Source: Oscillospiraceae bacterium
GTDB lineage: Bacteria > Bacillota > Clostridia > Oscillospirales > Acutalibacteraceae
Assembly (NCBI GenBank): GCA_015066515.1
Contig: SVOH01000018.1
Location: 1-39,198 of the forward strand
Reading direction: 5' to 3'
Length of the DNA stretch: 39,198 nt
In this document: positions 9,971 through 31,359 of the stretch, one piece after another
Layout: each line of letters begins with the position of its first letter
Numbering within the stretch: the first letter of the stretch is position 1
Program-made: the position numbers and the translations under genes
Notes under the pieces: generated by a model
What the model was told of the DNA's origin: nothing
Seen by the model: only the letters and a program-made list of their open reading frames with translations
Database searches by the model: none

Positions 9971-9999
9971 TTGACACACGCGCTTTAACGTGTTAAAAT
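9971..9999 (+). promoter_or_regulatory. Promoter of T-box unit 1
   Basis: TTGACA (9971-9976) and TAAAAT (9994-9999) are exactly 17 bases apart. The -10 overlaps a near-palindrome TTTAACGTGTTAAA, which could be an additional operator. Confidence 0.85.
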
Positions 10000-10007
10000 G
10001 TGAAAAA

Positions 10008-10276
10008 ATTTAAAAAGGCTATGACGAAGACGGCTTAAAATTTGCGTTTTCAGAGAACTGTCGGTTGGTGCAAGACAGCAACAAAAATTTTAAAATGCCC
10101 ATCACTTCCGAGCCGAAGGCCCGAAAAGCATTTGCTTAGTAGATACCTTCCGTGATTGCTGCGTAAAGGCATAGGAATTGTTAGATTCCGAGAGTGGTAG
10201 CCGCAAGGCTGCAATTTGAGTGGTACCGCGAGTGTTTATTATCACCCGTCTCAAAGCTTTGAGACGGGTGTTTTTT
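10008..10276 (+). promoter_or_regulatory. T-box riboswitch, predicted isoleucine specifier ATC
   Basis: The conserved T-box TGAGTGGTACCGCG is at 10217-10230, just before a strong terminator. Stem I starts with GGCT (10017-10020), which pairs with AGCC in CCGAGCC. GAAG pairs with CTTC, and the distal loop has the usual CAGAGA and GGTTGGTGCAA elements. In the specifier loop the 3' strand reads ATC then A immediately before CTTC, which places the specifier at 10101-10103, an isoleucine codon. T-boxes bind uncharged tRNA matching the specifier and permit readthrough. It therefore predicts that the ligase downstream is made when Ile-tRNA charging is low. Confidence 0.88.
10243..10276 (+). terminator. 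T-box 1 terminator
   Basis: CACCCGTCTCAAAG (10243-10256) is the exact inverse of CTTTGAGACGGGTG (10257-10270), followed by six T. It is the intrinsic terminator that competes with the T-box antiterminator. Confidence 0.92.
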
Positions 10277-10320
10277 ATTTTAATTTTGTGCTAAATGCAC
10301 GCAGAAAAGGAGTAGATTTT

Positions 10321-12588
10321 ATGCAAACCAACACAGCCAAAGAACAATTAAGAGAGATTGCCGCGCGAATTAAGGAGATGCGCGAAATTATGGGTTGGTC
10401 TATTGCCGAGATGGCAACAAAAACCGAAGTAAGCGAGCAAGAATATATAGAATATGAAAGCGCAACCGTGGATTTTCCGTTTACCTTTATACACAAATGT
10501 GCCCAAGCCTTTGACGTAGAAATGACACAGCTGCTTGAAGGTCATTCAGCTAAGCTTTCAAGCTATACCGTAACCCGTAAGGGCGGCGGTCAAAAAACAG
10601 CTAAGGAAGACGGTATCGACATCACAAACTTAGCACCTAAATTCAAAGACAAAATCGCCGAGCCATATTTTGTTAGATATGAATATTCGGCTTCACAGCA
10701 AAATAAACCAATTCATCTTACCAAGCACTCAGGTCAGGAATTTGACTTTATCTTAAGCGGCTCGCTTAAAGTACAAATCGGTGAGCACACCGAGATTTTG
10801 CACGAGGGCGACAGCATTTACTATAACTCCTCTACCCCACATGGTATGATTGCTATTGACGGCAAAGACTGCGTATTCTGCGCAGTCGTGCTCCCGGGCG
10901 AAGACACAAAAGAGGACGTTGTAAGAAAGAGTATTGTTTCGGCTAAAAAAAGCGAACAGCTCGTTTGTGAAAAGTTTGTTGAAACCGTGGAAGACGAAAC
11001 AGGCGCTTTGCAGGATATTAAGTTTAAAAACACCGAAAGCTTCAACTTTGGTTTTGACATTGTTGACGGCATCGCGGATAAATACCCCGAAAAGCTTGCA
11101 ATGCTTCATCTTGACAAGAATAAGGTTGAGCGCCGCTTTACATTTAAAGATATAAAGCGTGCATCAAACCAGGTTGCAAACTACTTCACCTCTCTTGGTA
11201 TCAAACGAGGTGATAAGGTAATGCTGGTGCTTAAGCGTCATTACCAGTTCTGGTTCTGTATGACAGCTCTTCACAAGCTTGGCGCTGTGGCAATTCCTGC
11301 TACCAATCAGCTTAAAGACCACGACTTTGAATACCGCTATAAAGCCGCAGGCGTAAAGGCGCTTGTTTGTACCGCCGACGGCGATACTGCCGAAATCGCC
11401 GAAAGAGCCGCTAAAAACTGTGATTGCGTAGAGCAGCTTATTATGGTAGGTGGCTCACGCGAGGGCTGGCACGACTTTGACAGTGAATATAAGCTTTATT
11501 CAGGCAAATTTGACCGACCGGAAGGCGCATCAGCAGGCAACGATGCCGCTCTTATGTTCTTTACCTCGGGTACTACCGGTAATCCTAAAATGGCAGCTCA
11601 CGCGCACACATATGCTCTTGGTCATTTTGTAACTGCAAAATATTGGCACTGCTGTGAGCGTGACGGACTGCACCTAACCATCTCTGACACGGGTTGGGGC
11701 AAATCCCTTTGGGGCAAGCTTTACGGCCAATGGCTTTGCGAGGGCGCTGTATTTGTTTACGACTTTGACCGCTTTGACGCATCGGATATTTTGCCAATGT
11801 TTGCAAACTATGGAATAACTACCTTCTGCGCACCGCCAACTATGCTTCGTATGCTTATAAAGGAAGACCTTTCAAAGTATGACCTTTCTTCTATTCACCA
11901 TATGACAACCGCAGGCGAAGCGCTTAACCCCGAAGTGTTTAAGCAATTTGAAAAAGCTACAGGACTTCAGATTATGGAGGGCTTTGGCCAGACCGAAACA
12001 ACCCTTACTATCGCAAACCTGCGTGGCACAACACCAAAAATCGGTGCTATGGGTAAGGCTTCACCTCAATACGATGTTGACATAGTTGACCCCGACGGCA
12101 ACCCCGTTGCTGACGGTGAGGTTGGCGAAATCGTCGTTCATACAAAAGATGGCGTTCCATGTGGATTGTTTAAAGAATACTATCTTGACGGCGAAAGAAC
12201 AGCGGAAGCTTGGCACGACGGTATGTATCACACAGGCGATACCGCTTGGCGTGATGAGGACGGATATTTCTGGTACGTAAGCCGTATTGATGACGTTATC
12301 AAGTCATCAGGCTACCGCATTGGACCGTTCGAGATCGAAAGCGTTATTATGGAGCTTCCATACGTTCTTGAGTGTGGCGTATCAGCAGCACCCGATGAGG
12401 TTCGCGGTCAGATAGTAAAGGCAAGCATCGTGCTTACCAAGGGCACCGAGCCTACCGAAGAACTCAAAAAAGAAATTCAGCAGTATGTTAAAACACATAC
12501 CGCTCCTTACAAATACCCCCGTCTTGTAGTATTCCGTGACGAATTGCCCAAGACAATAAGCGGAAAAATCCAGCGTAACAAACTGTAA
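10321..12588 (+). CDS. HTH-cupin-AMP-forming acyl-CoA ligase fusion (Ile T-box unit)
   Basis: A 755-residue protein, ATG behind AAGGAG. Residues about 9-65 are an XRE helix-turn-helix (IKEMREIMGWSIAEMATKTE...). Residues about 115-193 are a cupin (HSGQEFDFILSG, GDSIYYNSSTPHGM). Residues about 235-755 form an AMP-forming acyl-CoA ligase with FFTSGTTGNPK (413-423), GFGQTET, YHTGDTAWRDEDGYFWYVSR, and the catalytic Lys749 in SGKIQR. The class activates a carboxylate to acyl-CoA through an acyl-adenylate. Given the Ile-type T-box and the VOR/IlvE genes downstream, the substrate may be 2-methylbutyrate; this is inference. The N-terminal layout is that of HTH-cupin regulators, so binding to DNA or a small ligand is possible. 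It is closely paralogous to the next ligase. Confidence 0.88.
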   Translation: MQTNTAKEQLREIAARIKEMREIMGWSIAEMATKTEVSEQEYIEYESATVDFPFTFIHKCAQAFDVEMTQLLEGHSAKLSSYTVTRKGGGQKTAKEDGIDITNLAPKFKDKIAEPYFVRYEYSASQQNKPIHLTKHSGQEFDFILSGSLKVQIGEHTEILHEGDSIYYNSSTPHGMIAIDGKDCVFCAVVLPGEDTKEDVVRKSIVSAKKSEQLVCEKFVETVEDETGALQDIKFKNTESFNFGFDIVDGIADKYPEKLAMLHLDKNKVERRFTFKDIKRASNQVANYFTSLGIKRGDKVMLVLKRHYQFWFCMTALHKLGAVAIPATNQLKDHDFEYRYKAAGVKALVCTADGDTAEIAERAAKNCDCVEQLIMVGGSREGWHDFDSEYKLYSGKFDRPEGASAGNDAALMFFTSGTTGNPKMAAHAHTYALGHFVTAKYWHCCERDGLHLTISDTGWGKSLWGKLYGQWLCEGAVFVYDFDRFDASDILPMFANYGITTFCAPPTMLRMLIKEDLSKYDLSSIHHMTTAGEALNPEVFKQFEKATGLQIMEGFGQTETTLTIANLRGTTPKIGAMGKASPQYDVDIVDPDGNPVADGEVGEIVVHTKDGVPCGLFKEYYLDGERTAEAWHDGMYHTGDTAWRDEDGYFWYVSRIDDVIKSSGYRIGPFEIESVIMELPYVLECGVSAAPDEVRGQIVKASIVLTKGTEPTEELKKEIQQYVKTHTAPYKYPRLVVFRDELPKTISGKIQRNKL

Positions 12589-12605
12589 TATTTCAATTTA
12601 AAATA

Positions 12606-12634
12606 TTGACAAAACGTTTAAGTTGTGATATACT
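12606..12634 (+). promoter_or_regulatory. Promoter of T-box unit 2
   Basis: TTGACA (12606-12611) and TATACT (12629-12634) are 17 bases apart, starting 17 bases after the first ligase stop. No convincing terminator separates them, only a weak AATATTT/AAATATT pairing, so some readthrough from unit 1 is possible. Confidence 0.8.
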
Positions 12635-12642
12635 ATCATAAA

Positions 12643-12922
12643 TTTTTAAAGACTTTGACGAAGAGGGCATACTCCAACGCTTTTTTCAGAGAGATAACGG
12701 TTGGTGAAAGTTATCAAAAGTAGGTTTATGTTTGTAGCTTCCGAGTCGGGAGAAAGAAAGTTATTTTAACAAGTAGAATTTCCCCGTATTGCTGCGTAAA
12801 AGCATAGGAATTGTCAGATTCCGAGAGTGGTGACCTTTTTGGTTGCAATTTGAGTGGTACCGCGGATGACTGAATCAGCAGCATTCGTCTCAAAGTCATA
12901 ACTTTGGGGCGAGTGCTTTTTT
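12643..12922 (+). promoter_or_regulatory. T-box riboswitch, predicted valine specifier GTA
   Basis: T-box motif TGAGTGGTACCGCGG at 12851-12865. Stem I begins with GACT (12651-12654), pairing with AGTC in CCGAGTC. GAAG pairs with CTTC, and GCATA pairs with TATGT above the specifier loop. The 3' loop strand has GTA then G directly before CTTC, placing the specifier at 12734-12736, a valine codon. Its 3' half is nearly the same as T-box 1 (for example GCATAGGAATTGT, AGATTCCGAGAGTGGT), so leader and gene were probably duplicated together. Low charging of tRNA-Val should turn on the ligase-VOR-IlvE transcript. Confidence 0.87.
12881..12922 (+). terminator. T-box 2 terminator
   Basis: GCATTCGTCTCAAAG (12881-12895) pairs with CTTTGGGGCGAGTGC (12902-12916), using some G-U pairs, followed by six T. 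Confidence 0.88.
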
Positions 12923-12950: not shown

Positions 12951-15239
12951 ATGGAACAAATTACCGCGCTTGATTACAAAATTCAGGAGATGGCAAGCCG
13001 TATTAAAGATCTTCGTGAGCTCGAAGGTCTTACCACGGCACAGATGGCTGTCAAAACCGACGTCAGCGAGGCAGAATATATAGAGTGTGAATCGGGCAAA
13101 AGCGACTTAAACTTTGCTTTTATCTACCGTTGCGCATTGGCGCTTAACGTAAATGTTACCGATATTATCGAGGGTTACAGCCCTAAGCTTGCAAGCTATA
13201 CCGTAACTCGTGCAGGTAGCGGTCAAAAGGTATCTCAGGCACACGGTATGACATATTATAACTTGGCATATGCTTTCCGTGACAGAATTGCCGAACCGCT
13301 TTTTGTAAACAGCGTTTATGACGAAAGTGCACAGCAAAAAGACATTGAGCTTACCACCCACGCAGGTCAGGAATGTGACATTGTAATTGAGGGTAACTTG
13401 ATGGTTCAGGTTGGTGAGCACCGCGAGGTATTAGGACCCGGTGACAGCATTTATTTCGATAGTGACACACCTCACGGTATGATAGCCGTAAACGGCAAGG
13501 ACTGTAAGTTCTACGCTATTGTTCTTAATCCTACAGGAGAAGAAATTCCTGAGCTTACCACAGCTACCAAGATTGAAGACCGCCGTGTTTCTGCAAGAGA
13601 TAAGAAAAACCGTATCTACCGCAATTATATTGATACGGTTGAAGATGAAAACGGCACACCAACTTCGATTACATTTAAAAACGCCGATAAATTTAACTTT
13701 GCATTTGACTTGGTTGACGCTCTTGCTGAAAAAGAGCCAGACAAGCTTGCAATGTTACATATTTCAAAAGACAAAACCGAACGCCGCTTTACCTTTAAGG
13801 ATATGAAAAAGGCATCCAATCAGGTTGCTAACTACTTCAAATCTATTGGTATTAAAAAGGGCGACCGCGTAATGCTTGTTCTTAAGCGCCATTACCAATT
13901 CTGGTTCTCAATGTTAGCGCTTAACAAGCTTGGCGCTATTGCAATTCCTGCTCCAAATCAGTTGCTTGTTCACGACTTTGAATACCGCTTTAATGCTGCG
14001 GGCATATCAGCCATTGTTTGCACCGCTGACGGTGATACCGCAGCACAGGTAGATATTGCGGCAGAAAATTGCGACACACTTAAGCACAAGCTTATTGTAA
14101 ACGGCACACGTGACGGTTGGCGCAGCTTTGACGAAGAATACACCCTATTTAGTTCTAAATTTGAGCGCACCGAAGATTCCCCCTGTGGCGACGATTTGTT
14201 ACTTATGTTCTTTACATCCGGCACTACGGGCTATCCAAAGATTGCCGCTCACAATCACAAGTATCCATTAGGTCACTTCCATACAGCAAAATACTGGCAC
14301 AACGTTGACCCCGATGGACTTCACTTTACCATATCCGAAACGGGTTGGGCAAAATCAATGTGGGGCAAACTTTACGGCCAATGGCTATGCGAAGCCGCAA
14401 CCTTTGTTTACGATTTCGACCGTTTTGACGCGGCAGATATTTTGCCAATGTTTGCAAAATACAAGATAACAACCTTCTGCGCACCGCCTACCATGCTTCG
14501 TATGATGATTAAGCAGGACATTTCAAAGTATGATTTTTCTTCTGTTCAGCATATGACTACCGCGGGCGAAGCACTTAACCCCGAGGTTTACCGTCAATTT
14601 GAAAAGGCAACGGGACTACAGATAATCGAAGGCTTTGGTCAAACCGAGAGCACTATGATTATCGGTAATTTGGTTGGCGCTTCTCACAAAATCGGTTCTA
14701 TGGGCAAACCCGCCCCGATTTACGACGTACATATAGTTGACCCCGACGGCAATGACGTTCCCGACGGTGAAACGGGCGAAATCGTTGTAAATGTAGCTAA
14801 TGGCGCTCCTTGCGGCCTATTTACAGGCTACTACCGTGACGAAGAAAAAACCCGCGAGGTTTGGCACGACGGCTATTACCACACAGGCGATACCGCTTGG
14901 CGTGATGAGGACGGCTTCTATTGGTATGTTGGCCGCGTTGATGACGTTATCAAGTCCTCGGGCTACCGCATTGGACCCTTTGAAATTGAAAACGTTATTA
15001 TGGAGTTACCTTACGTTCTTGAATGCGGCGTATCGGCCGCACCCGATGAAGTTCGCGGTCAGGTTGTAAAGGCAAGCATTGTGCTGGTTGACGGCACTGA
15101 AGGCACCGAAGAGCTTAAAAAGGAAATTCAGGAATACGTTAAAAAGCATACAGCACCTTACAAATATCCTCGTATTGTTGTATTCCGCGACAGCCTTCCA
15201 AAAACTGTTAGTGGCAAAATACAGCGAAATAAATTATAA
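12951..15239 (+). CDS. HTH-cupin-AMP-forming acyl-CoA ligase fusion (Val T-box unit)
   Basis: A 762-residue paralogue of the preceding ligase with the same order: XRE helix-turn-helix (about 13-70, IKDLRELEGLTTAQMAVKTD), cupin (about 120-200, HAGQECDIVIEG and GDSIYFDSDTPHGM) and AMP-forming ligase (about 240-762, FFTSGTTGYPK, GFGQTES, YHTGDTAWRDEDGFYWYVGR, catalytic Lys756 in SGKIQR). The C-terminal 90 residues differ from the first copy at only a handful of positions; the HTH and cupin differ more. The ATG follows a GGAAGGA about 10 bases away. As the first gene of the Val T-box transcript, ahead of VOR and IlvE, it probably activates isobutyrate or a similar branched acid; the substrate is not shown by sequence. 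Confidence 0.88.
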   Translation: MEQITALDYKIQEMASRIKDLRELEGLTTAQMAVKTDVSEAEYIECESGKSDLNFAFIYRCALALNVNVTDIIEGYSPKLASYTVTRAGSGQKVSQAHGMTYYNLAYAFRDRIAEPLFVNSVYDESAQQKDIELTTHAGQECDIVIEGNLMVQVGEHREVLGPGDSIYFDSDTPHGMIAVNGKDCKFYAIVLNPTGEEIPELTTATKIEDRRVSARDKKNRIYRNYIDTVEDENGTPTSITFKNADKFNFAFDLVDALAEKEPDKLAMLHISKDKTERRFTFKDMKKASNQVANYFKSIGIKKGDRVMLVLKRHYQFWFSMLALNKLGAIAIPAPNQLLVHDFEYRFNAAGISAIVCTADGDTAAQVDIAAENCDTLKHKLIVNGTRDGWRSFDEEYTLFSSKFERTEDSPCGDDLLLMFFTSGTTGYPKIAAHNHKYPLGHFHTAKYWHNVDPDGLHFTISETGWAKSMWGKLYGQWLCEAATFVYDFDRFDAADILPMFAKYKITTFCAPPTMLRMMIKQDISKYDFSSVQHMTTAGEALNPEVYRQFEKATGLQIIEGFGQTESTMIIGNLVGASHKIGSMGKPAPIYDVHIVDPDGNDVPDGETGEIVVNVANGAPCGLFTGYYRDEEKTREVWHDGYYHTGDTAWRDEDGFYWYVGRVDDVIKSSGYRIGPFEIENVIMELPYVLECGVSAAPDEVRGQVVKASIVLVDGTEGTEELKKEIQEYVKKHTAPYKYPRIVVFRDSLPKTVSGKIQRNKL

Positions 15240-15252: not shown

Positions 15253-15918
15253 ATGAATAAATTTAAGCGATTAACATTACTTTGCGGGCATTACGGCAGC
15301 GGCAAAACAAATGTTGCCGTAAACCTTGCATTTTACTTAAAAGAGCAGTATAATAACGTGGTTGTAGCCGACCTTGATATTGTAAATCCGTATTTTCGCA
15401 CAAAAGACAGTATAGATGATTTCAAGGCTCGCGGCATAGAGCTTATATGCTCCCAGTATGCCAACACCAACGTTGATATACCTGCTTTACCCGCTAATAT
15501 GTACCGACTTACAGCCGATAAAGACATTACCGCTGTAATCGACGTTGGCGGCGACGACCGCGGTGCTTATGCCCTGGGTCGCCTTGTTCCCGAAATAAAA
15601 GCCGAAAATAATTTTGATATGTTAATGGTTATTAACGGCTACCGCCCACTTACCCCCGACGCAGAATCTACCATTGAGGTTATGCGCGAGATAGAAACCG
15701 CGTGCGGACTTAAATTTACGGGGCTTGTAAACAATTCAAACATCGGCGAAGAAACCACCGCCGAAGATATAATTAAATCCATAGGCTATGCAAATGAAGT
15801 GTCGCAAGCATCGGGTTTACCTATTGTAATGACCAGCGTAAAGCGTGAGCTTTATGACGGGCTCAAGAACAAAATAGATAACCTTTTGCCCATGACACTG
15901 CAAGCAAAACCTGTTTAA
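15253..15918 (+). CDS. P-loop ATPase of the ParA/MinD/CobQ type
   Basis: A 221-residue NTPase. GHYGSGKT (residues 12-19) is a Walker A motif, followed by VVVADLDIVNPYFR, a Walker-A'-like acidic stretch typical of the SIMIBI class, and AVIDVGGDDRG as Walker B. There is no partner-binding or DNA-binding domain. The gene begins 13 bases after the ligase stop with a poor ribosome site, suggesting coupled translation. It lies between the ligase and the VOR ferredoxin. ATPases of this class include iron-sulphur carrier and cofactor insertion proteins, so a role in assembling or activating the VOR complex is a reasonable guess only. Confidence 0.78.
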   Translation: MNKFKRLTLLCGHYGSGKTNVAVNLAFYLKEQYNNVVVADLDIVNPYFRTKDSIDDFKARGIELICSQYANTNVDIPALPANMYRLTADKDITAVIDVGGDDRGAYALGRLVPEIKAENNFDMLMVINGYRPLTPDAESTIEVMREIETACGLKFTGLVNNSNIGEETTAEDIIKSIGYANEVSQASGLPIVMTSVKRELYDGLKNKIDNLLPMTLQAKPV

Positions 15919-15933
15919 TAAAGGAGAATGAAT

Positions 15934-16140
15934 ATGGCAAAATTAACCTTTAAAACCGACAAGTGTAAAGGCTGCGGACTTTGCGTTGACGCATGCCCAA
16001 AGGGTCTTATTAAACTTGCCAATGACAAAATCAACCAAAAGGGCTATCACCCTGCAGAAATCACCGACGAATCAGCTTGCGTTGGTTGTGCTGCTTGCGC
16101 TATGATGTGCCCCGACTGCATTATCAAGGTAGAAAGGTGA
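15934..16140 (+). CDS. vorD: 2-oxoacid:ferredoxin oxidoreductase, ferredoxin-like delta subunit
   Basis: A 68-residue protein with two 4Fe-4S motifs: CKGCGLCVDACP (Cys11, 14, 17, 21) and CVGCAACAMMCP. This is the delta subunit that passes electrons between the catalytic core and free ferredoxin. The ATG at 15934 lies seven bases after AAGGAG; the ATG at 15928 is too close to that site. It directly precedes the alpha subunit, the usual order in four-subunit VOR/KOR operons. The D name follows one common convention; subunit letters vary between databases. Confidence 0.9.
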   Translation: MAKLTFKTDKCKGCGLCVDACPKGLIKLANDKINQKGYHPAEITDESACVGCAACAMMCPDCIIKVER

Positions 16141-16150: not shown

Positions 16151-17212
16151 ATGGCAGATAAAATTTTAATGAAGGGTAACGAAGCCATTGCCGAAGCCGC
16201 TATAAAGGCAGGCTGTATGCACTACTTTGGTTATCCTATCACACCTCAAACCGAGGTTGCAGCTTATATGGCAAAAAGAATGCCAAAAATTGGTGGATGC
16301 TTTTTGCAGGCAGAAAGTGAGATTGCCGCTATAAATATGGTTTACGGCGTAGCTTCTACCGGCAAACGTGTAATGACATCTTCTTCTTCACCAGGTATAT
16401 CACTCAAGAGCGAGGGTCTATCTTACCTTGCAGGCTCTGACCTTCCTGCTCTTATTGTAAACGTACAGCGTGGTGGACCGGGTCTTGGTGGTATTCAGCC
16501 TAGTCAGGCCGACTATTTCCAGGCTACAAAGGGCGGCGGTCACGGCGACTTTAAGATGATAGTACTTGCACCTTCTTCTGTTCAGGAAATGGCTGACCTT
16601 ACAGTTAAGGGCTTTGACCTTGCCGATAAATACCGTATGCCAACTATGCTTTTGGCTGACGGTACAATGGGTCAGATGATGGAGCCTGTTTCTCTCGACT
16701 ACGAAGTAAAAGAAACTGTTGATAAGCCTTGGGCTACAACAGGCACCAAAATGGAACGTGAACACAATATTGTTACTTCCCTTTTCTTAAAGCCTGACGA
16801 GCTTGAGGATCTTGTTGTAGAACGTTACGAACGTTACAAGGTTGTAGAAGAAAACGAAGTAATGTACGAAGAATATATGATGGATGATGCCGACATCTGC
16901 ATTGCCGCTTTTGGCATTGCCGCTCGTGTTGCTAAAAACGCAATCAACGAAGCAAGAAAACAGGGCATCAAGGTTGGTCTTATTCGCCCCATCACACTTT
17001 GGCCTTTCCCTGTAGCACCTTTCAAAAAGGCGGCTGACAAGGTTAAAGAGATCATCTCGGTAGAGCTTTCTATGGGCCAGATGATTGAGGACGTACGCCT
17101 CGCTTGTGAATGCAAGGTGCCTGTTACACTTTGTAGCCGTACAGGCGGTATGATTCCTTCACCTGAACAGGTATTAGAAGCTATAACACGCGCAAATGGA
17201 GGTGCAAAATAA
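16151..17212 (+). CDS. vorB: 2-oxoacid (probably 2-oxoisovalerate):ferredoxin oxidoreductase, alpha subunit
   Basis: A 353-residue alpha subunit, often annotated VorB. It contains the pyrimidine-binding transketolase-like domain (GNEAIAEAAIKAGCMHYFGYPITPQTEV..., QAESEIAAINMVYGVASTGKRVMTSSSSPG) and the domain with RGGPGLGGIQPSQADYFQATKGGGHGD; the C-terminal domain handles CoA (SVELSMGQMIEDVRLA). The enzyme interconverts branched 2-oxo acids plus CoA with acyl-CoA, CO2 and reduced ferredoxin. Specificity for branched substrates rests on the operon (IlvE, Val T-box) more than on residues. It follows vorD by 10 bases and overlaps the beta gene by one base (TAATG). Confidence 0.9.
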   Translation: MADKILMKGNEAIAEAAIKAGCMHYFGYPITPQTEVAAYMAKRMPKIGGCFLQAESEIAAINMVYGVASTGKRVMTSSSSPGISLKSEGLSYLAGSDLPALIVNVQRGGPGLGGIQPSQADYFQATKGGGHGDFKMIVLAPSSVQEMADLTVKGFDLADKYRMPTMLLADGTMGQMMEPVSLDYEVKETVDKPWATTGTKMEREHNIVTSLFLKPDELEDLVVERYERYKVVEENEVMYEEYMMDDADICIAAFGIAARVAKNAINEARKQGIKVGLIRPITLWPFPVAPFKKAADKVKEIISVELSMGQMIEDVRLACECKVPVTLCSRTGGMIPSPEQVLEAITRANGGAK

Positions 17213-17970
17213 TGGCAGTAGTATTTGATAAACCACATGCTCTTACAGACGTTCCTATGCATTATTGCCCAGGTTGCACCCACGGTATAGTGCATCGTCT
17301 TGTTGCAGAGGTTATTGACGAATTAGGAATTGAGGGTAAAACCATTGGTATTGCACCAGTTGGTTGCTCGGTATTTGCTTATAATTACTTTAACTGCGAT
17401 ATGATTGAGGCGGCTCACGGCCGTGCTCCTGCAGTTGCAACAGGTGTTAAGCGTTCCGACCCTGAAAACCACGTTGTATTTACATATCAGGGTGACGGTG
17501 ACTTAGCTTCCATCGGTATGGCTGAGACTGTACACGCAGCAGCAAGAAACGAAAACATTACAATTATCTTTATTAACAACGCAATCTACGGTATGACAGG
17601 CGGTCAGATGGCACCTACCTCACTTCCAGGTCAGGTTACACAAACTTCACCATACGGTCGTGATACCAAGCATTGTGGTTTTCCGATTAAAGTTTGCGAA
17701 ATGCTTTCAGAGCTTGAAGGTCCCGAATATTTAGAGCGTGTTACTGTTAGCAACGTTAAAAATATTGTTAAGGCTAAAAAAGCTATTAAAAAGGCTTTTC
17801 AAAATCAGATTGACGGCAAGGGCTTCTCTCTTGTAGAGGTTGTGTCAACCTGCCCTACCAACTGGGGTATGACACCGCAAAACGCACTCAAGTGGCTCGA
17901 AGAAAATATGCTTCCTTACTACCCACTTGGTGTTTATAAAGACAGATCTGCAAAGGAGGAAACAAAATAA
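17212..17970 (+). CDS. vorA: 2-oxoacid:ferredoxin oxidoreductase, TPP-binding beta subunit
   Basis: A 252-residue subunit that binds thiamine pyrophosphate: GDGDLASIGMAETVHAAARN, then NNAIYGMTGGQMAPTS, is the diphosphate/Mg motif. CPGCTHGIVHRL near the start and PVGCSVFAYNYFNCD are typical of the KOR/VOR beta family. It carries out the C-C bond chemistry with the alpha subunit. It starts on the TAATG overlap with the alpha gene and ends in the same kind of overlap with the gamma gene, so stoichiometric translation is expected. Confidence 0.92.
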   Translation: MAVVFDKPHALTDVPMHYCPGCTHGIVHRLVAEVIDELGIEGKTIGIAPVGCSVFAYNYFNCDMIEAAHGRAPAVATGVKRSDPENHVVFTYQGDGDLASIGMAETVHAAARNENITIIFINNAIYGMTGGQMAPTSLPGQVTQTSPYGRDTKHCGFPIKVCEMLSELEGPEYLERVTVSNVKNIVKAKKAIKKAFQNQIDGKGFSLVEVVSTCPTNWGMTPQNALKWLEENMLPYYPLGVYKDRSAKEETK

Positions 17971-18500
17971 TGACTACACAAATTTTGCTTTCCGGCTTTG
18001 GCGGACAGGGTATTTTGTTTACAGGTAAGTTTTTGGCATACAAGGGCCTTCTCGCCGACAAAAACGTTAGTTGGCTCCCATCCTACGGCCCCGAAATGCG
18101 TGGCGGTACAGCTAGCTGCAGCGTAATTATAAGCGACGAAGAGGTAGGCTCTCCTATCATTTCACAGCCTGACGTGCTTATTGCAATGAACCTACCATCA
18201 TTTGAAAAGTTTGAGCCTACTGTTAAGGCGGGTGGTATTGTAATTGCTGACTCAAGTCTTATTGAGGCAAAGTCAACCCGTACCGATATTGACGTTTACT
18301 ACATCCCTGCAACTGCACTTGCAAGTGACATGGGCAAACAGTCACTCGCTAATATGATAATCCTTGGCAAATTGCTTAAGGTAATGAACGACTTTAACGA
18401 GGATGAAATCAAAACCGTTCTCGGCAAGGTTATTCCACCAAAGAAAGCCGATATGCTTGACATTAACTTAAAGGCTATGCAACTTGGTGCAGAAAATTAA
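17970..18500 (+). CDS. vorC: 2-oxoacid:ferredoxin oxidoreductase, gamma subunit
   Basis: A 176-residue subunit starting with [20 protein letters not shown] and containing [22 protein letters not shown], both hallmarks of the gamma domain that completes the complex and contributes to CoA-dependent chemistry. It overlaps the beta gene by one base (TAATG), and the ilvE ribosome site follows its stop. All four VOR subunits are therefore present as separate short polypeptides. Confidence 0.92.
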
Positions 18501-18513
18501 GGAGGATATACAA

Positions 18514-19575
18514 ATGGATATCAAATTTGTAAAAGCTGACGTTTTAAAAGAAAAACCAGACAGTTCCACCTTAGGTTTCGGTAAAATTTTTACCGACTAT
18601 ATGTTTATGATGGACTATTCTCGTGAAGAGGGTTGGCATGATGCTCGCATCGTTCCGTTTGCGCCTATTGCACTCCACCCTGCTTCTACCGTTTTACACT
18701 ACGGCTCTGAAATTTTTGAAGGTCTTAAGGCATACCGCACGAAAAGCGGCACAGTACAGCTTTTTAGACCTATGGAAAACATCCGCCGTATGAACTCATC
18801 GGCCGAAAGACTTTGCCTTCCTCAAATTCCTGAGGATTTGGCTTTGCAGGTTCTTACCGAGTTTGTAAAGACTGAACAGGACTGGACACCATCGGCTGAC
18901 GGCACTTCACTTTACCTTCGTCCGTTTATGTTTGGTAATGATGAAACCTTGGGTGTTCACGCAGTACACAATGCAACCTACGTTATAATCGCGTCGCCCG
19001 TTGGCAGCTATTATAAAGAGGGCATTAACCCCGTTAAGATTATGATTGAAGACGAAGATGTTCGCGCAGTACGCGGCGGTACAGGTTATGCTAAATGCGG
19101 TGGTAACTATGCTGCAAGTAACCGTGCAGGCGAACGCGCTGAACAAAAAGGTTACTCACAGGTTTTGTGGCTTGACGGTGTTGAAAGAAAGTATATCGAA
19201 GAAGTTGGCGCTATGAACGTTATGTTCAAAATCGGCGACGAGATTGTAACACCTATGCTTTCGGGCTCAATTCTCCCGGGTATTACACGTAAATCTTGTC
19301 TTGAGGTTTTACGCAGTAAGGGCTATAAAGTAAGCGAGCGTTTACTTAGCATTGACGAGCTGGCTGAGGCTATGGCAAACGGCACACTCAAAGAAGCTTG
19401 GGGTTGCGGCACAGCAGCAGTTATTTCTCCAATTGGCGAGCTTTGCTACAAAGATACCAAATACGCTGTAAACAACGGCGAAATCGGCGAAGTGACACAA
19501 ATGCTTTACGACACCTTAACAGGCATTCAGTGGGGCAAAATCGAAGATACTTTTGATTGGACTTATAAACTATAA
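18514..19575 (+). CDS. ilvE: Branched-chain amino-acid aminotransferase
   Basis: A 353-residue class IV PLP aminotransferase of the BCAT group. It interconverts Val, Leu and Ile with their 2-oxo acids, using glutamate/2-oxoglutarate. Signatures include LHYGSEIFEGLKAYR, RPMENIRRMNSSAERL, the PLP lysine Lys194 in GTGYAKCGGNYAAS, and GSILPGITRKSCLEVL. The ATG at 18514 follows AAGGAGG; a longer frame from 18484 overlaps vorC and is not favoured. It is last in the Val T-box operon and ends at a hairpin terminator. Beside VOR it would close a route from acyl-CoA to the amino acid, or the reverse in fermentation. Confidence 0.95.
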   Translation: MDIKFVKADVLKEKPDSSTLGFGKIFTDYMFMMDYSREEGWHDARIVPFAPIALHPASTVLHYGSEIFEGLKAYRTKSGTVQLFRPMENIRRMNSSAERLCLPQIPEDLALQVLTEFVKTEQDWTPSADGTSLYLRPFMFGNDETLGVHAVHNATYVIIASPVGSYYKEGINPVKIMIEDEDVRAVRGGTGYAKCGGNYAASNRAGERAEQKGYSQVLWLDGVERKYIEEVGAMNVMFKIGDEIVTPMLSGSILPGITRKSCLEVLRSKGYKVSERLLSIDELAEAMANGTLKEAWGCGTAAVISPIGELCYKDTKYAVNNGEIGEVTQMLYDTLTGIQWGKIEDTFDWTYKL

Positions 19576-26075: not shown

Positions 26076-26104
26076 TTGACAAGCGTTTTTCATTATGATA
26101 TAAT
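26076..26104 (+). promoter_or_regulatory. Promoter of T-box unit 3
   Basis: TTGACA (26076-26081) and TATAAT (26099-26104) are both consensus boxes, exactly 17 bases apart. Confidence 0.92.
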
Positions 26105-26111: not shown

Positions 26112-26402
26112 AATATTTTTTAAATGCTTTGAAGGAATTATTTCTTTTCTTCCCTTCTTTTCAGAGAGTCGTCGGTTGGTGCAAGACGATAAGAACATTA
26201 AAAGAAAGCCTCATTCCCGAGCAGAGTGGCTGAACAAAATGAAATTTTAAGTAAGTTACTACGGTTTGTCCCGTTATAAAACACAAGGCTTGTTGGAGCT
26301 TTGACAAAGCGGTTGCTTTTTTGCAACAACCAGGGTGGTACCGCGAAAAACAAATTTTCGTCCCTGAAGTAAAGTTATTTAACTTTGCTTCGGGCTTTTT
26401 TA
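26112..26402 (+). promoter_or_regulatory. T-box riboswitch, predicted leucine specifier CTC
   Basis: T-box AGGGTGGTACCGCG at 26332-26345 before a terminator. Stem I begins with TGCT (26125-26128), which pairs with AGCA; GGAA pairs with TTCC below the specifier loop and TTTCTTTT with AAAAGAAA above it. The distal part has CAGAGA and GGTTGGTGCAA as in the other two leaders. The 3' loop strand reads CTC then A directly before TTCC, placing the specifier at 26210-26212, a leucine codon. The matching tRNA-Leu(GAG) is encoded at 31275-31359. It predicts induction of the three downstream genes when that tRNA is uncharged. Confidence 0.88.
26362..26402 (+). terminator. T-box 3 terminator
   Basis: CCCTGAAGTAAAGTT (from 26362) pairs with AACTTTGCTTCGGG (to 26394) with one bulged T and one G-U pair, followed by a T-rich tail. 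Confidence 0.85.
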
Positions 26403-26449: not shown

Positions 26450-27826
26450 ATGAAACAAATCAAAATTGCAGATGCGACTCTTTGCCGCGAGAACAGTCAC
26501 TTTAGCTTTAAGGAGAAAATTGAAATTGCAAGACAGCTCGAAAACCTAAACGTTGACGTTATCGAGTTTCCTGAAATAGCAAACGCTCGCGCAGATATTT
26601 TGCTTATTAAAACCGTTTCATCATTTGTTAAAAACAGTGTAATTTCGGTAGCAGCAGGTGTTGGTGCCGACAGTGTGGAAAATGCTATTGCTTCTCTTGC
26701 AAATGCTAAAAACGCACAGGTGCGAATTGAGCTTCCTGTGTCGCCTGTTGGTATGGAATATACCTGCCACAAAAAACCCGATAAAATTTTGGCACATATT
26801 GAAAATGCTATTACAACCGCAAAGAAAACTATTCAAAATGTAGAATTTTGCGCCGTTGATGCTACACGTGCCGAAGCTGATTTTCTTAAAAACGCTATTA
26901 CCACTGCAATTAATGCCGGTGCTACAAGCGTATCTATTTGCGACAGTGCCGCCAATATGATGCCCGACGATTTTGCAGCCTTTGCCGCAAGCGTTGCCGA
27001 CTACTGCACAGTACCTGTTGGTGTTAAGTGTGACAACAAAAATGGGCTAGCAATTGCTCAGGCAATTCTTGCCGTGAAGCAGGGTGTTGATACTGTTAAA
27101 ACTGCTGTTGACGGCACAACCGTGCAGCTTGATATATTTGCCGATATGATTAAAAACTGCGGCAACGACTACGGCTTTACTTCAAATATCAAAACTACCG
27201 AGCTTCACCGCATAGTTAAACAAATCCGTTGGGTAACGGGTGCTGCACAAAACAGCAATACCGCCATAAAAACCGCCGAGGATACAGGCGTTCATCTCGA
27301 CAAAAACGATGATATCGACGCAGTATCTACTGCCGCTGCAAAGCTTGGTTATGACCTTTCAGAAGATGACAAGGCAAAGGTTTATGAAGAATTTTTACGC
27401 GTAGCCGCAAAAAAGAATGTAGGCTATAAAGAGCTTGAAGCAATTATAGCTTCTGTTGCGCTTCAGGTACCTGCTACCTATTCACTCGTAAACTACGTTA
27501 TCAACACGGGCAACATTATTCCCGCATCGGCTCAAATCACTATTAAAAAAGCCGACGAGCAAATACAGGGCATTTGCATTGGTGATGGCCCTATCGATGC
27601 CGCATTTTTGGCAATAGAGCAAATTATTGGCCACCACTACGAACTTGACGATTTTCAAATCACCTCTGTTACCGAGGGCAAAGAGGCTATGGGCTCGGCT
27701 ATTGTTAAACTACGTAATAATGGCAAGCTTTATTCGGGTAACGGTATTTCTACCGACATTATAAGCGCAAGTATTCGCGCATACATTAATGCCGTAAACA
27801 AGATTGTTTACGAGGAGGCAAACTAA
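26450..27826 (+). CDS. 2-isopropylmalate synthase-like protein with degenerate active site and intact LeuA regulatory domain
   Basis: A 458-residue protein; ATG nine bases after AAAGGAG. Residues about 1-240 form the HMGL-like TIM barrel, and about 340-455 the LeuA allosteric domain (GNIIPASAQITIKKADEQIQ, IGDGPIDAAFLAIEQIIG, GNGISTDIISASIRAYINA). In active LeuA the start is DTTLRDGEQ with a catalytic Arg; here it is DATLCRENS (residues 8-16). The metal site HCHNDLGLA is KCDNKNGLA here (about 193-201), so both His ligands are replaced by Lys and Asp, and the GERAGN motif is lost. DATR (about 137-140) is kept. It is unlikely to make isopropylmalate by the usual chemistry. It may be a leucine sensor or partner of the next enzyme. 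It is first in the Leu T-box operon. Confidence 0.82.
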   Translation: MKQIKIADATLCRENSHFSFKEKIEIARQLENLNVDVIEFPEIANARADILLIKTVSSFVKNSVISVAAGVGADSVENAIASLANAKNAQVRIELPVSPVGMEYTCHKKPDKILAHIENAITTAKKTIQNVEFCAVDATRAEADFLKNAITTAINAGATSVSICDSAANMMPDDFAAFAASVADYCTVPVGVKCDNKNGLAIAQAILAVKQGVDTVKTAVDGTTVQLDIFADMIKNCGNDYGFTSNIKTTELHRIVKQIRWVTGAAQNSNTAIKTAEDTGVHLDKNDDIDAVSTAAAKLGYDLSEDDKAKVYEEFLRVAAKKNVGYKELEAIIASVALQVPATYSLVNYVINTGNIIPASAQITIKKADEQIQGICIGDGPIDAAFLAIEQIIGHHYELDDFQITSVTEGKEAMGSAIVKLRNNGKLYSGNGISTDIISASIRAYINAVNKIVYEEAN

Positions 27827-27827: not shown

Positions 27828-30332
27828 ATGAAATTATCATTTTCTACAAAGGGTTGGCATAACAGCTCGTTTGATGAATTTTGTGATATAGCGGTTGATT
27901 TGGGTTTTGGCGGTATCGAGCTGCACAACGTAAACAACCGCCTTTTCACCGATAAAGACGGTGCTTTTCACGATTATACTGCCGCTGCTACCGCTCGCAG
28001 ACTTTATGAAAAGAAATTACAAATTCCTTGTATTGACGTGCTTTGCGATATTGCCGCCGCTAACAAGGCCGATGCCGCTATAGAGGAATTTTCAAAATGT
28101 GTAAATATCGCTTCTAACCTTAATATTCCCGCTATTCGCGTAAAGGCCGAAAAGGCTGTTGACGCTGATTTGGCTCACGCTACCGTTATTTCTTTTATAG
28201 AAAAAGCGCTTACCGTAGCAACTGCAAAAAATATAACAATTTTAATTGAAACGTCGGGTCTTTTCTGCAAAACTGCAGAGCTTCGATGTGTCTTAGACCA
28301 ATTCGCTTGTGATAATTTAGCAGCTCTTTGGAATATGTCAGCCGCTTACTTCGAGGGTGGCGAAAGCGCCGAAGAAATTATTAAAAACTTGGGCGCATAT
28401 ATTAAGCATGTTCACATTAACGATGCTGAAAAAACAGCTGACGGCGTAGAGTTTTGCCTTATAGGTGAAGGTGAATTACCTATAGGTGATATGATGCTCG
28501 CTTTGCGTTCAGTAAACTATGACGGCTTTGTATCACTCGTTTGGGATCCAAGCTGGTGCCAAGAGCTTGACGATATGGAAATCATATTTTCACAGTACGT
28601 AGGTTATATGAAGCAGTACGGCGATACCTCTAAAAACGAGCGTACCTTCTACTACAACAAGAGTCACACAGGCAAATTCGTTTGGAAAAAGGATTTGCTT
28701 ATCGACCTTACTTTCTCACAGGTCCTTGACACTATGGTTGAGTGCTTCCCTGACCAATACGCATTCAAATATACAACTCTCGACTACACACGCACCTATT
28801 CGGAATTTCGTGACGACGTTGACACTTTTGCACGCTCACTTATTTCTATGGGCGTAAAGGCGGGCAGCCACGTAGCCGTTTGGGCATCTAACGTGCCGCA
28901 GTGGTATATTGCGTTTTGGGCAACCGTTAAAATCGGCGCTGTTTTAGTAACCGTTAACACCGCTTACAAAATTCACGAGATTGAATATTTGCTTAAGCAG
29001 TCTGACACCCATACCCTTATTATGACCGAAGGCTCAAAGGACACACACTACGGCAAAATTATTGCCGAGCTTTGCCCCGAGCTTGAAACAACAAAGGTAG
29101 GATCTCCGCTTCATAGCCGCAGACTTCCCTTCCTTCGCAACGTAATTACCGTAGGCTACAATCAAAAGGGTTGTATGACTTGGGAGGATGCGATTGACCG
29201 CGCGGCGCAGGTACCGCTTTCAGAGGTTCACCGCATGGCTGCCGCAGTTGATAAAGACGACGTTTGCAATATGCAATATACGTCAGGTACCACAGGTTTC
29301 CCAAAAGGCGTTATGCTTACACACTACAACGTTGTAAACAACGGTAAATATATCGGCGACCATATGGATTTATCAACCGCCGACCGTATGATGATTCAAG
29401 TACCTATGTTCCACTGTTTTGGTATGGTGCTTTCTATGACATCTTCTATGACACACGGCGCTACGATGTATCCGCTTCCCTATTTCTCACCAAAGCCTGC
29501 ACTTGCTTGCGTTCATAACGAGCATATTACCGCCTTTAACGGCGTGCCTACAATGTTTATCGCTATGATGCAACACGAAGACTTTGCAAAAACCGACTTT
29601 TCATATATTCGTACAGGTATTATGGCTGGCGCTAACTGTCCTGCCGACCTTATGAAAAAGGCAACCGAAGTTATGAATATGACCGAAATCGTATCAGTTT
29701 ACGGTCAGACCGAGGCAAGCCCAGGCTGTACTATGAGCAGTTATTACGATTCACTTGAGGTTCGTACCGAAACGGTTGGTAGTGCATTCGCTAACGTTGA
29801 GTGTAAAATTGTTGACCCCGAAACGGGCGAGGATTGCCCCGACGGCGTTAACGGTGAGTTTGTTGCACGCGGCTACAACATAATGAAGGGTTACTACAAA
29901 ATGCCTCAGGCTACCGCCTCTACCATTGATGCTGACGGCTGGCTTCACACAGGTGACCTTGCCTGTCGCACACCCGAGGGTAACTACAATATTACAGGCA
30001 GACTTAAGGATATGATTATCCGCGGCGGCGAAAACATTTACCCAAAAGAAATCGAAGAATTTATCTATACCTGTGATAAGGTTAAGGATGTTCAGGTTAT
30101 CGGCGTTCCCGACAAGCGCTATGGTGAAGAGATTATGGCTTGCATCATCTTAAAAGACGGCGAAACAATGAGTGAAGAAGAAATGAAGCAATATATAGCC
30201 GACCATATGGCTCGTCACAAGGTGCCGCGTTATATTGAGTTTGTAAAAGCATTCCCGATGAATGCCGCAGGCAAAATACTGAAATACAAGATGCGTGAAG
30301 ATGCCGCAAAGCGTTTGGGCCTTGAGGAGTAA
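27828..30332 (+). CDS. TIM-barrel isomerase-like domain fused to AMP-forming acyl-CoA ligase (Leu T-box unit)
   Basis: An 834-residue fusion; the ATG at 27828 overlaps the translation context of the previous gene, whose last codons supply GAGGAGG. Residues about 1-265 are a xylose-isomerase-like/AP-endonuclease-2-type barrel (FCDIAVDLGFGGIELHN, ILIETSGLF, YIKHVHIND, LIGEGELPIGDM). Residues about 290-834 are an AMP-forming ligase: MQYTSGTTGFPKGVMLTHYN (about 481-500), VYGQTEAS, GWLHTGDLACRTPEGNYNITGR, and the catalytic Lys near 815 in NAAGKILKY. It belongs to a different ligase branch from the two HTH-cupin ligases. Under a Leu T-box, isovalerate is a candidate substrate; this is inference. 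The role of the barrel is unknown. Confidence 0.85.
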   Translation: MKLSFSTKGWHNSSFDEFCDIAVDLGFGGIELHNVNNRLFTDKDGAFHDYTAAATARRLYEKKLQIPCIDVLCDIAAANKADAAIEEFSKCVNIASNLNIPAIRVKAEKAVDADLAHATVISFIEKALTVATAKNITILIETSGLFCKTAELRCVLDQFACDNLAALWNMSAAYFEGGESAEEIIKNLGAYIKHVHINDAEKTADGVEFCLIGEGELPIGDMMLALRSVNYDGFVSLVWDPSWCQELDDMEIIFSQYVGYMKQYGDTSKNERTFYYNKSHTGKFVWKKDLLIDLTFSQVLDTMVECFPDQYAFKYTTLDYTRTYSEFRDDVDTFARSLISMGVKAGSHVAVWASNVPQWYIAFWATVKIGAVLVTVNTAYKIHEIEYLLKQSDTHTLIMTEGSKDTHYGKIIAELCPELETTKVGSPLHSRRLPFLRNVITVGYNQKGCMTWEDAIDRAAQVPLSEVHRMAAAVDKDDVCNMQYTSGTTGFPKGVMLTHYNVVNNGKYIGDHMDLSTADRMMIQVPMFHCFGMVLSMTSSMTHGATMYPLPYFSPKPALACVHNEHITAFNGVPTMFIAMMQHEDFAKTDFSYIRTGIMAGANCPADLMKKATEVMNMTEIVSVYGQTEASPGCTMSSYYDSLEVRTETVGSAFANVECKIVDPETGEDCPDGVNGEFVARGYNIMKGYYKMPQATASTIDADGWLHTGDLACRTPEGNYNITGRLKDMIIRGGENIYPKEIEEFIYTCDKVKDVQVIGVPDKRYGEEIMACIILKDGETMSEEEMKQYIADHMARHKVPRYIEFVKAFPMNAAGKILKYKMREDAAKRLGLEE

Positions 30333-30337
30333 CAACG

Positions 30338-31147
30338 ATGATTGATAACAAGTTTACCGTTATCGACTCACACTGCCATATATACCCCATAAAAATTGCA
30401 AAACCTGCCGTAGAAAGTACCGGCAGGTTTTACGATATGACAGCGCTCGGTGACGGCACAGTAAATTCCTTGCTCGCTATTGGCGAAAAGGTGGGCATCG
30501 ACCGTTTTGTTGTGCAATCGGTGGCTACTACCCCACATCAAGTGCAAAGCATTAATAAATTCATCTCTGACGAGGTTTCTGCCTTCCCCGACAAACTTAT
30601 CGGTCTTGGCACAATGCACCCCGATAGCAGCGATTTAAAGGGAGATTTAGAACACATTAAGGAATTAGGGTTGCACGGAGTAAAACTTCACCCCGATATT
30701 CAAAGGTTCAAGATAGACGATTACCGCTGTCTTAAAATATACGAGCTTTGCGAAAAAGAGAATATGCCAATCCTTATGCATACAGGTGATTACCGATTCG
30801 ATTATTCTAATCCAAACCGTTTGGTGCCGATTTTAGATATTTATAAAAATCTTACCATAATCGGCGCGCATTTGGGCGGTTGGTCGGTTTGGGACGAAGC
30901 GGTTGAAAAGCTTTCGGGCTATAAAAATTTTTACGTAGACTCTTCGTCAAGTCTTTACGAATTACCAATAGACCGCGCTACCGAAATTATCCGCACCTAC
31001 GGTGTAGAAAAGGTTTTATTCGGCTCTGACTTCCCCGTTTTCTCACCCGATATAGAGCTTGAACGCTTTATGGCGCTACCTCTTACGGATGATGAGCGTC
31101 GCAAAATTTTAAGCGAAAATGTTTTAAGAGTTTATGGTATAGAATAA
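30338..31147 (+). CDS. Amidohydrolase-2 family metal-dependent hydrolase
   Basis: A 269-residue protein with the amidohydrolase TIM-barrel motifs: VIDSHCHIY at the N-terminus, GLGTMHPDS, GVKLHPDIQ, PILMHTGDY, IIGAHLGGW and LFGSDFPVFSP, which supply the usual His/Asp metal and catalytic residues. PF04909 members hydrolyse or decarboxylate small carboxylates; the substrate here is not evident. The ATG follows GAGGAG by eight bases and starts five bases after the fusion protein's stop, so it is in the Leu T-box operon. A decarboxylase or hydrolase step on an acyl product is possible. Confidence 0.82.
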   Translation: MIDNKFTVIDSHCHIYPIKIAKPAVESTGRFYDMTALGDGTVNSLLAIGEKVGIDRFVVQSVATTPHQVQSINKFISDEVSAFPDKLIGLGTMHPDSSDLKGDLEHIKELGLHGVKLHPDIQRFKIDDYRCLKIYELCEKENMPILMHTGDYRFDYSNPNRLVPILDIYKNLTIIGAHLGGWSVWDEAVEKLSGYKNFYVDSSSSLYELPIDRATEIIRTYGVEKVLFGSDFPVFSPDIELERFMALPLTDDERRKILSENVLRVYGIE

Positions 31148-31164
31148 TTAAACAGCTTAAAAAA

Positions 31165-31206
31165 TCAATAAATATGGGCAAGAACATCCTTGCCTATATT
31201 TATTGA
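31165..31206. terminator. Hairpin after the Leu T-box operon
   Basis: TCAATAAATATGGGCAAG (31165-31182) pairs with CTTGCCTATATTTATTGA (31189-31206) around AACATC. On the plus strand it is not followed by T; the T run is on the minus-strand side. It probably stabilises or weakly ends the operon transcript. Confidence 0.65.
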
Positions 31207-31225
31207 AAAAAATTGAAAATAATTG

Positions 31226-31254
31226 TTGACAAAGCAAAGCGTTAGTGCTATAAT
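31226..31254 (+). promoter_or_regulatory. Consensus promoter of tRNA-Leu
   Basis: TTGACA (31226-31231) and TATAAT (31249-31254), 17 bases apart, both perfect consensus, 20 bases before the tRNA. Confidence 0.93.
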
Positions 31255-31274
31255 AATCGGGCGCAATAGAATAA

Positions 31275-31359
31275 GCGAGTGTGCTGGAATAGGCAGACAG
31301 GCACGTTTGAGGGGCGTGTGTTCACCGACGTATGGGTTCAAGTCCCATCACTCGCACCA
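31275..31359 (+). tRNA. tRNA-Leu (GAG anticodon)
   Basis: An 85-base type II tRNA with encoded CCA. The acceptor stem GCGAGTG (31275-31281) pairs with CACTCGC (31349-31355). The anticodon arm is CACGT/GCGTG with loop TTGAGGG and anticodon GAG at 31309-31311. A long variable region follows, and the T arm is ATGGG-TTCAAGT-CCCAT. It reads CUC and CUU leucine codons. It has its own promoter and terminator. Its anticodon matches the predicted CTC specifier of T-box 3. Confidence 0.96.

Follow-up and report, generated by a model that had tools for sequence, protein, structure and literature searches.

Three T-box leaders with isoleucine, valine and leucine specifiers head probable branched-acid activation units in an Oscillospiraceae bacterium

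The stretch of DNA analyzed here (the window, 39,198 nucleotides, to which all coordinates refer) comes from contig SVOH01000018.1 of the Oscillospiraceae bacterium assembly GCA_015066515.1. It holds three units, each headed by a T-box leader and each encoding an acyl-coenzyme A (CoA) ligase. An initial annotation of the window had read the three leaders as T-boxes with isoleucine (Ile), valine (Val) and leucine (Leu) specifiers. The promoters and leader elements are as follows, all on the plus strand.
9971..9999 (+): promoter of the Ile unit, TTGACA-17-TAAAAT, sigma-70-like, 11/12 matches
10012..10256 (+): Ile T-box leader (RF00230 88.0 bits, E 5.8e-18; stem I model 85.3 bits)
10101-10103 (+): Ile specifier ATC (Rfam alignment and stem I covariance model)
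10243..10270 (+): terminator hairpin and T run of the Ile leader (folded stretch z -3.3)
12606..12634 (+): promoter of the Val unit, sigma-70-like, 11/12 matches
12646..12895 (+): Val T-box leader (RF00230 92.3 bits, E 4.6e-19; stem I model 81.2 bits)
12734-12736 (+): Val specifier GTA (Rfam alignment and stem I covariance model)
12880..12917 (+): terminator hairpin and T run of the Val leader
26076..26104 (+): promoter of the Leu unit, sigma-70-like, 12/12 matches
26120..26368 (+): Leu T-box leader (RF00230 135.5 bits, E 3.3e-30)
26210-26212 (+): Leu specifier CTC (Rfam alignment and stem I covariance model)
26363..26394 (+): terminator hairpin and T run of the Leu leader

Rfam and covariance modelling returned the same triplets that the initial annotation had given (ATC, GTA and CTC) and placed all three as it had described, with a purine next and then a 4-bp helix. 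Stem I with its specifier loop, AG bulge and distal loop is present in the leaders under both models, the T-box sequence sought as UGGNACCGCG occurs as GTGGTACCGCG in all 3 leaders, and antiterminator and terminator are present. The RF00230 gathering score of 93 bits is exceeded by the Leu leader only, with the Val (92.3) and Ile (88.0) leaders slightly below it. Twenty-eight leaders went into the stem I model (23 from branched-chain units and 5 control T-boxes of the same genome). The model replaced a regular-expression reader, which was dropped after partial leader recovery and wrong triplets (GCA, TAG, TCT, TTC, TGT, CAC and GGC). Across its 12 pairs, 95.2% of cells are paired versus 75.2% in shuffles, and 10 of the pairs are altered on both sides. 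The rule for reading the specifier was correct at 5/5 other strong T-boxes of the genome, giving TTC for pheS, TGG for trpB, AAC for asnS, ACC for thrS and ATC for ileS, the last of these genes being identified from a cut-off frame (575 bits, below its 621 cut-off). In the ileS leader (L008, 1501-1728) stem I is well formed and the specifier is ATC, but AGGUGGUUUAAGC stands in place of UGGNACCGCG, and its T-box pairing looks altered. A ninth T-box match in the genome (E 0.009) was taken as spurious, as it falls within a frame that resembles pyruvate kinase by eye.

The initial annotation had suggested looking for these units in related genomes, and across relatives the specifiers hold at the level of the amino acid. 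The relatives are 80 contigs retrieved through the Val ligase (the best 80 matches of a longer list), mostly, judging by their titles, metagenome-assembled Clostridia from ruminant guts. In the window plus these contigs the stem I model gave 174 matches, from leaders that share ancestry and some of which also served to build the model: ATC in 59/59 Ile-ligase leaders, GTA in 78/79 and GTC in 1/79 Val-ligase leaders, and CTC in 33/35 (31 by rule, 2 by eye) and CTG in 2/35 leaders of LeuA relatives. The one remaining match, outside the units, reads TGG. The 24 lowest-scoring leaders were read by rule; the two called by eye (L097 and L113) show CTC, with A and then TTCC behind it. The synonymous swaps to GTC and CTG indicate that the codon varies while the amino acid stays constant. 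Where at least 400 nucleotides of upstream sequence were available, a leader was present at 57/57 Ile ligases, 79/81 Val ligases (exceptions L106 and L110) and 35/37 LeuA relatives (exceptions L052 and L081). Sixty loci from a family search, including the window's own L010 and L120, contributed 36 stem I matches, among them 22 GTA and 1 GTC at Val ligases and 8 ATC at Ile ligases, plus 1 ATC whose gene lies beyond the locus; in 4 relatives a Leu T-box (CTC in 2, CTG in 2) stands immediately 5' of the barrel-ligase gene of the Leu unit. The 28 loci from other families of the class (L152-L179) gave 28 matches in 26 loci (GTA 20, ATC 7, CTC 1), the single CTC lying upstream of a LeuA relative. 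Every one of the 18 matches in 58 further, mostly more distant loci reads ATC. Rfam, applied to 20 of these 58, additionally found T-boxes in L160, where it is cut off, and in L233; the latter (1-187, 47.9 bits) lies 5' of an unfused ligase relative.

In relatives, strong promoters occupy the position equivalent to that of the Ile-unit promoter. Around the Ile and Val leaders the frequency of promoter and terminator patterns shows no excess over shuffles, so it is their position and strength, rather than their number, that carries weight. With respect to autoregulation through the helix-turn-helix (HTH) domain of the ligases, no conserved operator was found between the promoter hexamers, the interval covered (45/64 Ile, 45/95 Val and 26/26 Leu rows); palindromes present in the Ile and Val promoters of the window have counterparts in the near-identical L040 alone.

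The initial annotation also held that each leader controls an acyl-CoA ligase. In the Ile and Val units the ligase is indeed the first gene; in the Leu unit it comes second, behind a relative of LeuA. The Ile and Val ligases share one architecture.
10321..12588 (+): Ile-unit acyl-CoA ligase, 755 aa, predicted 2-methylbutyrate-CoA ligase (XRE HTH, cupin and AMP-binding domains, Pfam)
12951..15239 (+): Val-unit acyl-CoA ligase, 762 aa, predicted isobutyrate-CoA ligase (XRE HTH, cupin and AMP-binding domains, Pfam)

The top PDB match of both ligases is 3ETC, with 644 bits for the Ile enzyme (next 344) and 612 bits for the Val enzyme (next 359). This structure is MacsMa of Methanosarcina acetivorans, for which the published account gives 2-methylbutyrate as the preferred acid and describes a Gly in place of the Acs-type Trp, whose role is taken over by a different Trp (PMC10455477). 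Both traits are retained in the ligases, and the alternative Trp is present in 64/64 Ile and 102/102 Val sequences; it is number 260 in the chain sequence, and equating it with the Trp259 of the paper is our own reading. The protein alignments from which these and later counts derive comprise 64 Ile, 102 Val, 58 LeuA-like and 60 fusion ligase rows, with broken and partial genes excluded; duplicate fetches leave 54/58 LeuA-like and 207/212 ligase rows distinct. The top NCBIfam match of both enzymes is MbcS (NF047394), an enzyme whose branched acyl-CoA products prime the synthesis of membrane fatty acids. Filing them as MbcS was rejected, since their scores (Ile 442.9, Val 447.6 bits) lie below the curated cut-off of 850. 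That the ligases supply such primers is nevertheless a reading which this family match favors (443 and 448 bits, under 850), but amino-acid-specific T-boxes and an operon shared with VOR and IlvE would be hard to place in it. We regard it as very unlikely as the main function; primers could be a by-product.

Comparison of the 64 Ile and 102 Val ligases revealed a small number of group-specific positions in the ligase domain (conserved to at least 85% per group), namely H318/N325, G460/A467, L463/M470, G475/A482, L562/M569 and A565/G572 (Ile/Val numbering), with others within the HTH-cupin part. G460 of the Ile ligase and A467 of the Val ligase align with Val310 of Escherichia coli Acs, which we take to be an acyl-pocket residue; 3ETC has Gly here. 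When ligases were sorted by specifier, this position was Gly in 83/84 distinct Ile-specifier ligases (the exception being L036) and Ala in 109/109 distinct Val-specifier ligases (107 GTA, 2 GTC), and clustering at 95% left Gly in 72/73 and Ala in 86/86. These counts exclude 15/212 ligases without an assigned specifier, in part because the alignment used held the best 150 matches. Ala would add a methyl group to the pocket, which would agree with a change of substrate from a C5 acid to a C4 one. In a tree of 109 tips (a random 60 of the nearer sequences and all others) with 3ETC as outgroup, the Val ligases form one clade nested among serial Ile ligases, several nodes being weakly supported. 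Most likely, one duplication of T-box and ligase was followed by a joint change of codon and pocket.

More distant relatives bear on the origin of the fused enzyme. At about 43-47% identity the HTH-cupin and ligase parts are separated by in-frame stops in many cases (L192-L217), and other distant relatives have no HTH-cupin part. In L226 the HTH-cupin part and the ligase lie in two distinct frames, in that order, behind an ATC leader, which indicates that the fused form may derive from two adjacent genes, one regulator-like and one encoding the ligase. Four unfused relatives in which no T-box was detected (L220-L222 and L234) carry Met at the pocket position (GWMK) and perhaps act on another acid.

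Downstream of its ligase the Val unit continues with the following genes.
15253..15918 (+): P-loop nucleoside triphosphatase, CbiA/ParA-like (Pfam)
15928..16140 (+): ferredoxin-like VorD subunit, 70 aa (CxxCxxC motifs in the translation, and conservation)
16151..17212 (+): VorB (NF005507 550 bits, cut-off 399)
17212..17970 (+): VOR thiamine pyrophosphate-binding subunit (Pfam, NCBIfam)
17970..18500 (+): VOR gamma subunit (Pfam, NCBIfam)
18484..19575 (+): branched-chain aminotransferase IlvE (NF009897 487 bits, cut-off 307)

The presence of VOR and IlvE in the Val unit, claimed in the initial annotation, is borne out: four VOR subunits were found, one of them a ferredoxin, and VorB and IlvE score above curated cut-offs. 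Within the window the two enzymes are encoded in the Val unit only and could serve all three acids. Of the 80 relatives' stretches, some of them truncated, at least 61 hold an Ile ligase as well as a Val ligase (both ligases of L069 scored as Val type), 57 the four VOR genes, 49 VOR with IlvE, and 35 the LeuA relative with the barrel-ligase. Another 15 of the 80 contain a Val ligase with no Ile ligase or VOR, so VOR may be encoded elsewhere in those genomes. The P-loop protein between Val ligase and VOR is kept in most relatives' stretches that reach this point.

The Leu unit differs in composition from the other two.
26450..27826 (+): LeuA-like protein, 458 aa (HMGL-like barrel and LeuA_dimer domain)
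27828..30332 (+): AP_endonuc_2 barrel-AMP-binding ligase fusion, 834 aa (Pfam, NCBIfam)
30338..31147 (+): amidohydrolase-2 family protein (Pfam; frequent in relatives' Leu units)
31275-31359: tRNA-Leu(GAG), confirmed as a tRNA

The LeuA-like protein scores 234 bits against TIGR00973, where the cut-off of 598.7 is not reached, and has a LeuA_dimer domain (PF08502, 103.9 bits). Its relatives contain the GxGP and TDI motifs of E. coli LeuA. An AlphaFold2 model (mean pLDDT 86.5, pTM 0.59, the domain arrangement being uncertain) matches LeuA structures, including the leucine-bound LeuA of Mycobacterium tuberculosis. The catalytic Arg of LeuA and its metal-site Asp, His and His are presumably Arg13, Asp14, His202 and His204 of the E. 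coli enzyme. The positions of Asp14, His202 and His204 are retained in 0/58 rows (54 distinct) and that of Arg13 in 4/58; no row retains two of the four, and the window protein has lost all of them, together with the GERAGN stretch. An active synthase was rejected on the strength of these lost residues. The best conserved part of the protein is its last 160 residues, the leucine-binding domain (block means 0.72-0.87 versus 0.46-0.67 for the first 300). This pattern suggests a leucine-sensing pseudoenzyme acting on the product of the next gene.

That next gene encodes the barrel-ligase, whose ligase half is the better conserved (block means 0.72-0.95 versus 0.44-0.66 for the barrel) and which we propose to be an isovalerate-CoA ligase. 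Among the 150 family genomes it is matched in 68, in 13 of these over the ligase half only. Its top NCBIfam match is PRK12583, below cut-off, which puts it in a different subfamily from the Ile and Val ligases. This difference, together with the LeuA fold and dimer domain of its neighbor, leaves room for another reading of the Leu unit alone, in which isovalerate is not activated: 2-isopropylmalate would be the product of the LeuA relative, or the fusion would use another acid. We consider it unlikely: the LeuA catalytic and metal-site positions are lost at the frequencies given above, the genome's only leuC-type candidate is aconitase-sized, and a Leu T-box controls the fusion in the four relatives in which it has no LeuA relative before it. 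The tRNA-Leu(GAG) had appeared to be a possible conserved part of the regulon. That idea has been abandoned, since no tRNA-Leu was found in the 18 relatives' stretches scanned (some ending soon beyond the Leu unit), and its place beside the unit is probably incidental.

To place these units in their host, we examined the gene content of the genome and of its family. No ilvC, ilvD or acetolactate synthase match was found in the genome (a 98% complete assembly), each of these families being found in 14/14 controls. The sole leuC-type candidate is a 647-codon frame; the leuC bit score is uninformative, as its cut-off was passed in 0/150 genomes. LeuA-type matches are the window protein, one on the contig of the aconitase candidate and one weak match; the 3 POR_N matches are the window VOR, an 1187-codon frame and a 580-codon frame. 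The genome thus seems to lack the usual synthesis of Ile, Val and Leu, as is expected, though not strictly necessary, if reductive carboxylation is the route. Among the 150 family genomes, 20/23 with two fused ligases (two unbroken full-length fused matches at 59% identity or more) have neither ilvC nor ilvD, while ilvC exceeds its cut-off in 82 of the 127 others (Fisher P 4.6e-6, with kinship ignored); this group and a single-ligase group of 17 were delimited after a first look at the data. The barrel-ligase has a match in 22 of the 23.

The missing pathway also bears on the direction of flux. In principle these enzymes can run in reverse, and fermentation commonly yields branched acids, so IlvE and VOR might instead degrade the amino acids, with the ligases releasing the branched acids. 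We hold this catabolic direction to be highly improbable. T-boxes switch genes on when tRNA is uncharged, that is, at starvation, and here their specifiers are cognate; the usual synthesis of the amino acids is missing from the genome; and ligases that form AMP (adenosine monophosphate) normally run towards acyl-CoA.

We consider it highly likely that the three units together constitute a regulon for branched-chain amino acids, in which Ile, Val and Leu are made by reductive carboxylation of branched acids and activation of the acids is under cognate T-boxes. Each ligase would form the CoA thioester of one gut-derived acid (2-methylbutyrate, isobutyrate or isovalerate). From the thioesters the shared VOR would produce 2-oxo acids by reductive carboxylation, and amination of the 2-oxo acids by IlvE would yield Ile, Val and Leu. 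An uncharged cognate tRNA would pair with the specifier and the T-box sequence, allowing the antiterminator to form and the unit to be transcribed. Acid activation, the amino-acid-specific step, would in this way be tuned for each amino acid, the Ile and Leu units adding their own ligase once their tRNA is uncharged; the LeuA relative would probably add leucine sensing at the protein level in the Leu unit. The route from ligase through VOR to IlvE had been put forward in the initial annotation and is very probably correct, as gene content, ligase type and the missing ilv genes agree with it. We infer the pathway itself, the ligase substrates, the direction of flux and the role of the pseudoenzyme from sequence. 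The same annotation assigned the ligases to branched acids, which fits the Ile and Val enzymes, whose best matches are of the branched-short-acyl type and not aryl or long-chain, and fits the Leu enzyme less securely.

Several observations weigh against this interpretation. The absence of LeuC was judged by frame length alone, and leuB lay outside the gene set searched. Three of the 23 two-ligase genomes retain ilvC and ilvD, the single-ligase genomes show no association (ilvC with 8, without 9; P 0.17), and, of the 61 genomes that have neither ilvC nor ilvD, 21 show no ligase (P0002) match, so loss of ilvC and ilvD does not require the ligases. No stem I match was found in 40 of the 58 further, mostly distant loci, mainly those with split or unfused ligases, and the fused ligases L173 and L203 are also among the loci without one. 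L036 combines an ATC specifier with Ala in the pocket, and the pocket switch, as the tree places it, is a single event. The subfamily of the Leu ligase makes isovalerate less secure as its substrate. The P-loop protein, the Leu-unit barrel and the amidohydrolase are not accounted for by the proposed pathway.

A more specific model can be offered tentatively, with slightly less than even confidence, in which control has two layers. At the RNA level, each acid-activating ligase would have its own T-box, acquired by unit duplication with a joint change of AUC to GUA or GUC and of Gly to Ala. At the protein level, the dead LeuA, retained solely to sense leucine, would restrain the Leu ligase, and the HTH-cupin parts might act alike in the Ile and Val ligases.

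Other genes noted in the window lie on either side of the three units. A long collagen-repeat protein (3-2441) continues past the contig end, and a 760-aa frame (3284-5566) has sigma-70 regions 2 and 4 in its first third only, the remainder being without a Pfam match. Proline-synthesis-type genes (amino acid kinase, aldehyde dehydrogenase and pyrroline-5-carboxylate reductase; 7085-9942) adjoin the Ile unit divergently. On the minus strand, 31400-36125 encodes an amidohydrolase, two GFO/IDH/MocA dehydrogenases, a second AP_endonuc_2 barrel and a glucosamine-isomerase family protein, probably an amino-sugar operon, with an AraC-type regulator adjoining it.

Both halves of the proposed system have precedents. 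In Firmicutes, T-boxes are known from operons for ilv/leu biosynthesis and from genes for tRNA ligases and for transporters, and they share with the leaders of the window the RNA, the specifier logic, the terminator and the amino acids (PMC2494555). The known leaders serve de novo synthesis, tRNA ligases and transport, whereas those of the window serve acid-CoA ligases with VOR and IlvE; the words "acyl-CoA", "oxidoreductase" and "ketoisovalerate" have no occurrence in the main text of PMC2494555. In rumen bacteria, amino acids are made from isobutyrate, 2-methylbutyrate and isovalerate through reductive carboxylation, according to work of Allison, Robinson and colleagues that is cited and discussed in PMC7356843; the chemistry proposed here and the ecological source of the acids are the same. 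Beyond the classical work, the window would add a description at the level of genes, in which each amino acid has its own ligase under a matching T-box. According to the initial annotation, such an arrangement is not known to have been described. Among the open-access papers listed in searches, none joins T-boxes with branched-acid CoA ligases or reductive carboxylation, and none treats a LeuA pseudoenzyme; subscription papers on T-box regulons may mention cases. Pathway and T-boxes are known already; their pairing was not found in the open-access literature searched.

The individual proteins compare with known enzymes in a similar manner. MacsMa can be aligned with the ligase domain over almost its full length and shares the pocket Gly of the Ile ligases and the alternative Trp, but it has no HTH-cupin part and belongs to another host, and the Val ligases differ from it by their pocket Ala. 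LeuA has the barrel, the LeuA_dimer domain, GxGP and TDI in common with the LeuA-like protein, while among the relatives the catalytic Arg is mostly lost, the metal-site residues are always lost and the leucine domain is best conserved; the LeuA relative is a candidate for a biosynthetic enzyme retained solely as a sensor. In the duplicated units the codon of the regulator and the presumed pocket residue of the enzyme shift together. The T-box specifiers would mark, from within each unit, the amino acid that its ligase serves, making the old branched-acid requirement testable gene by gene and the growth needs of uncultured gut Clostridia predictable.

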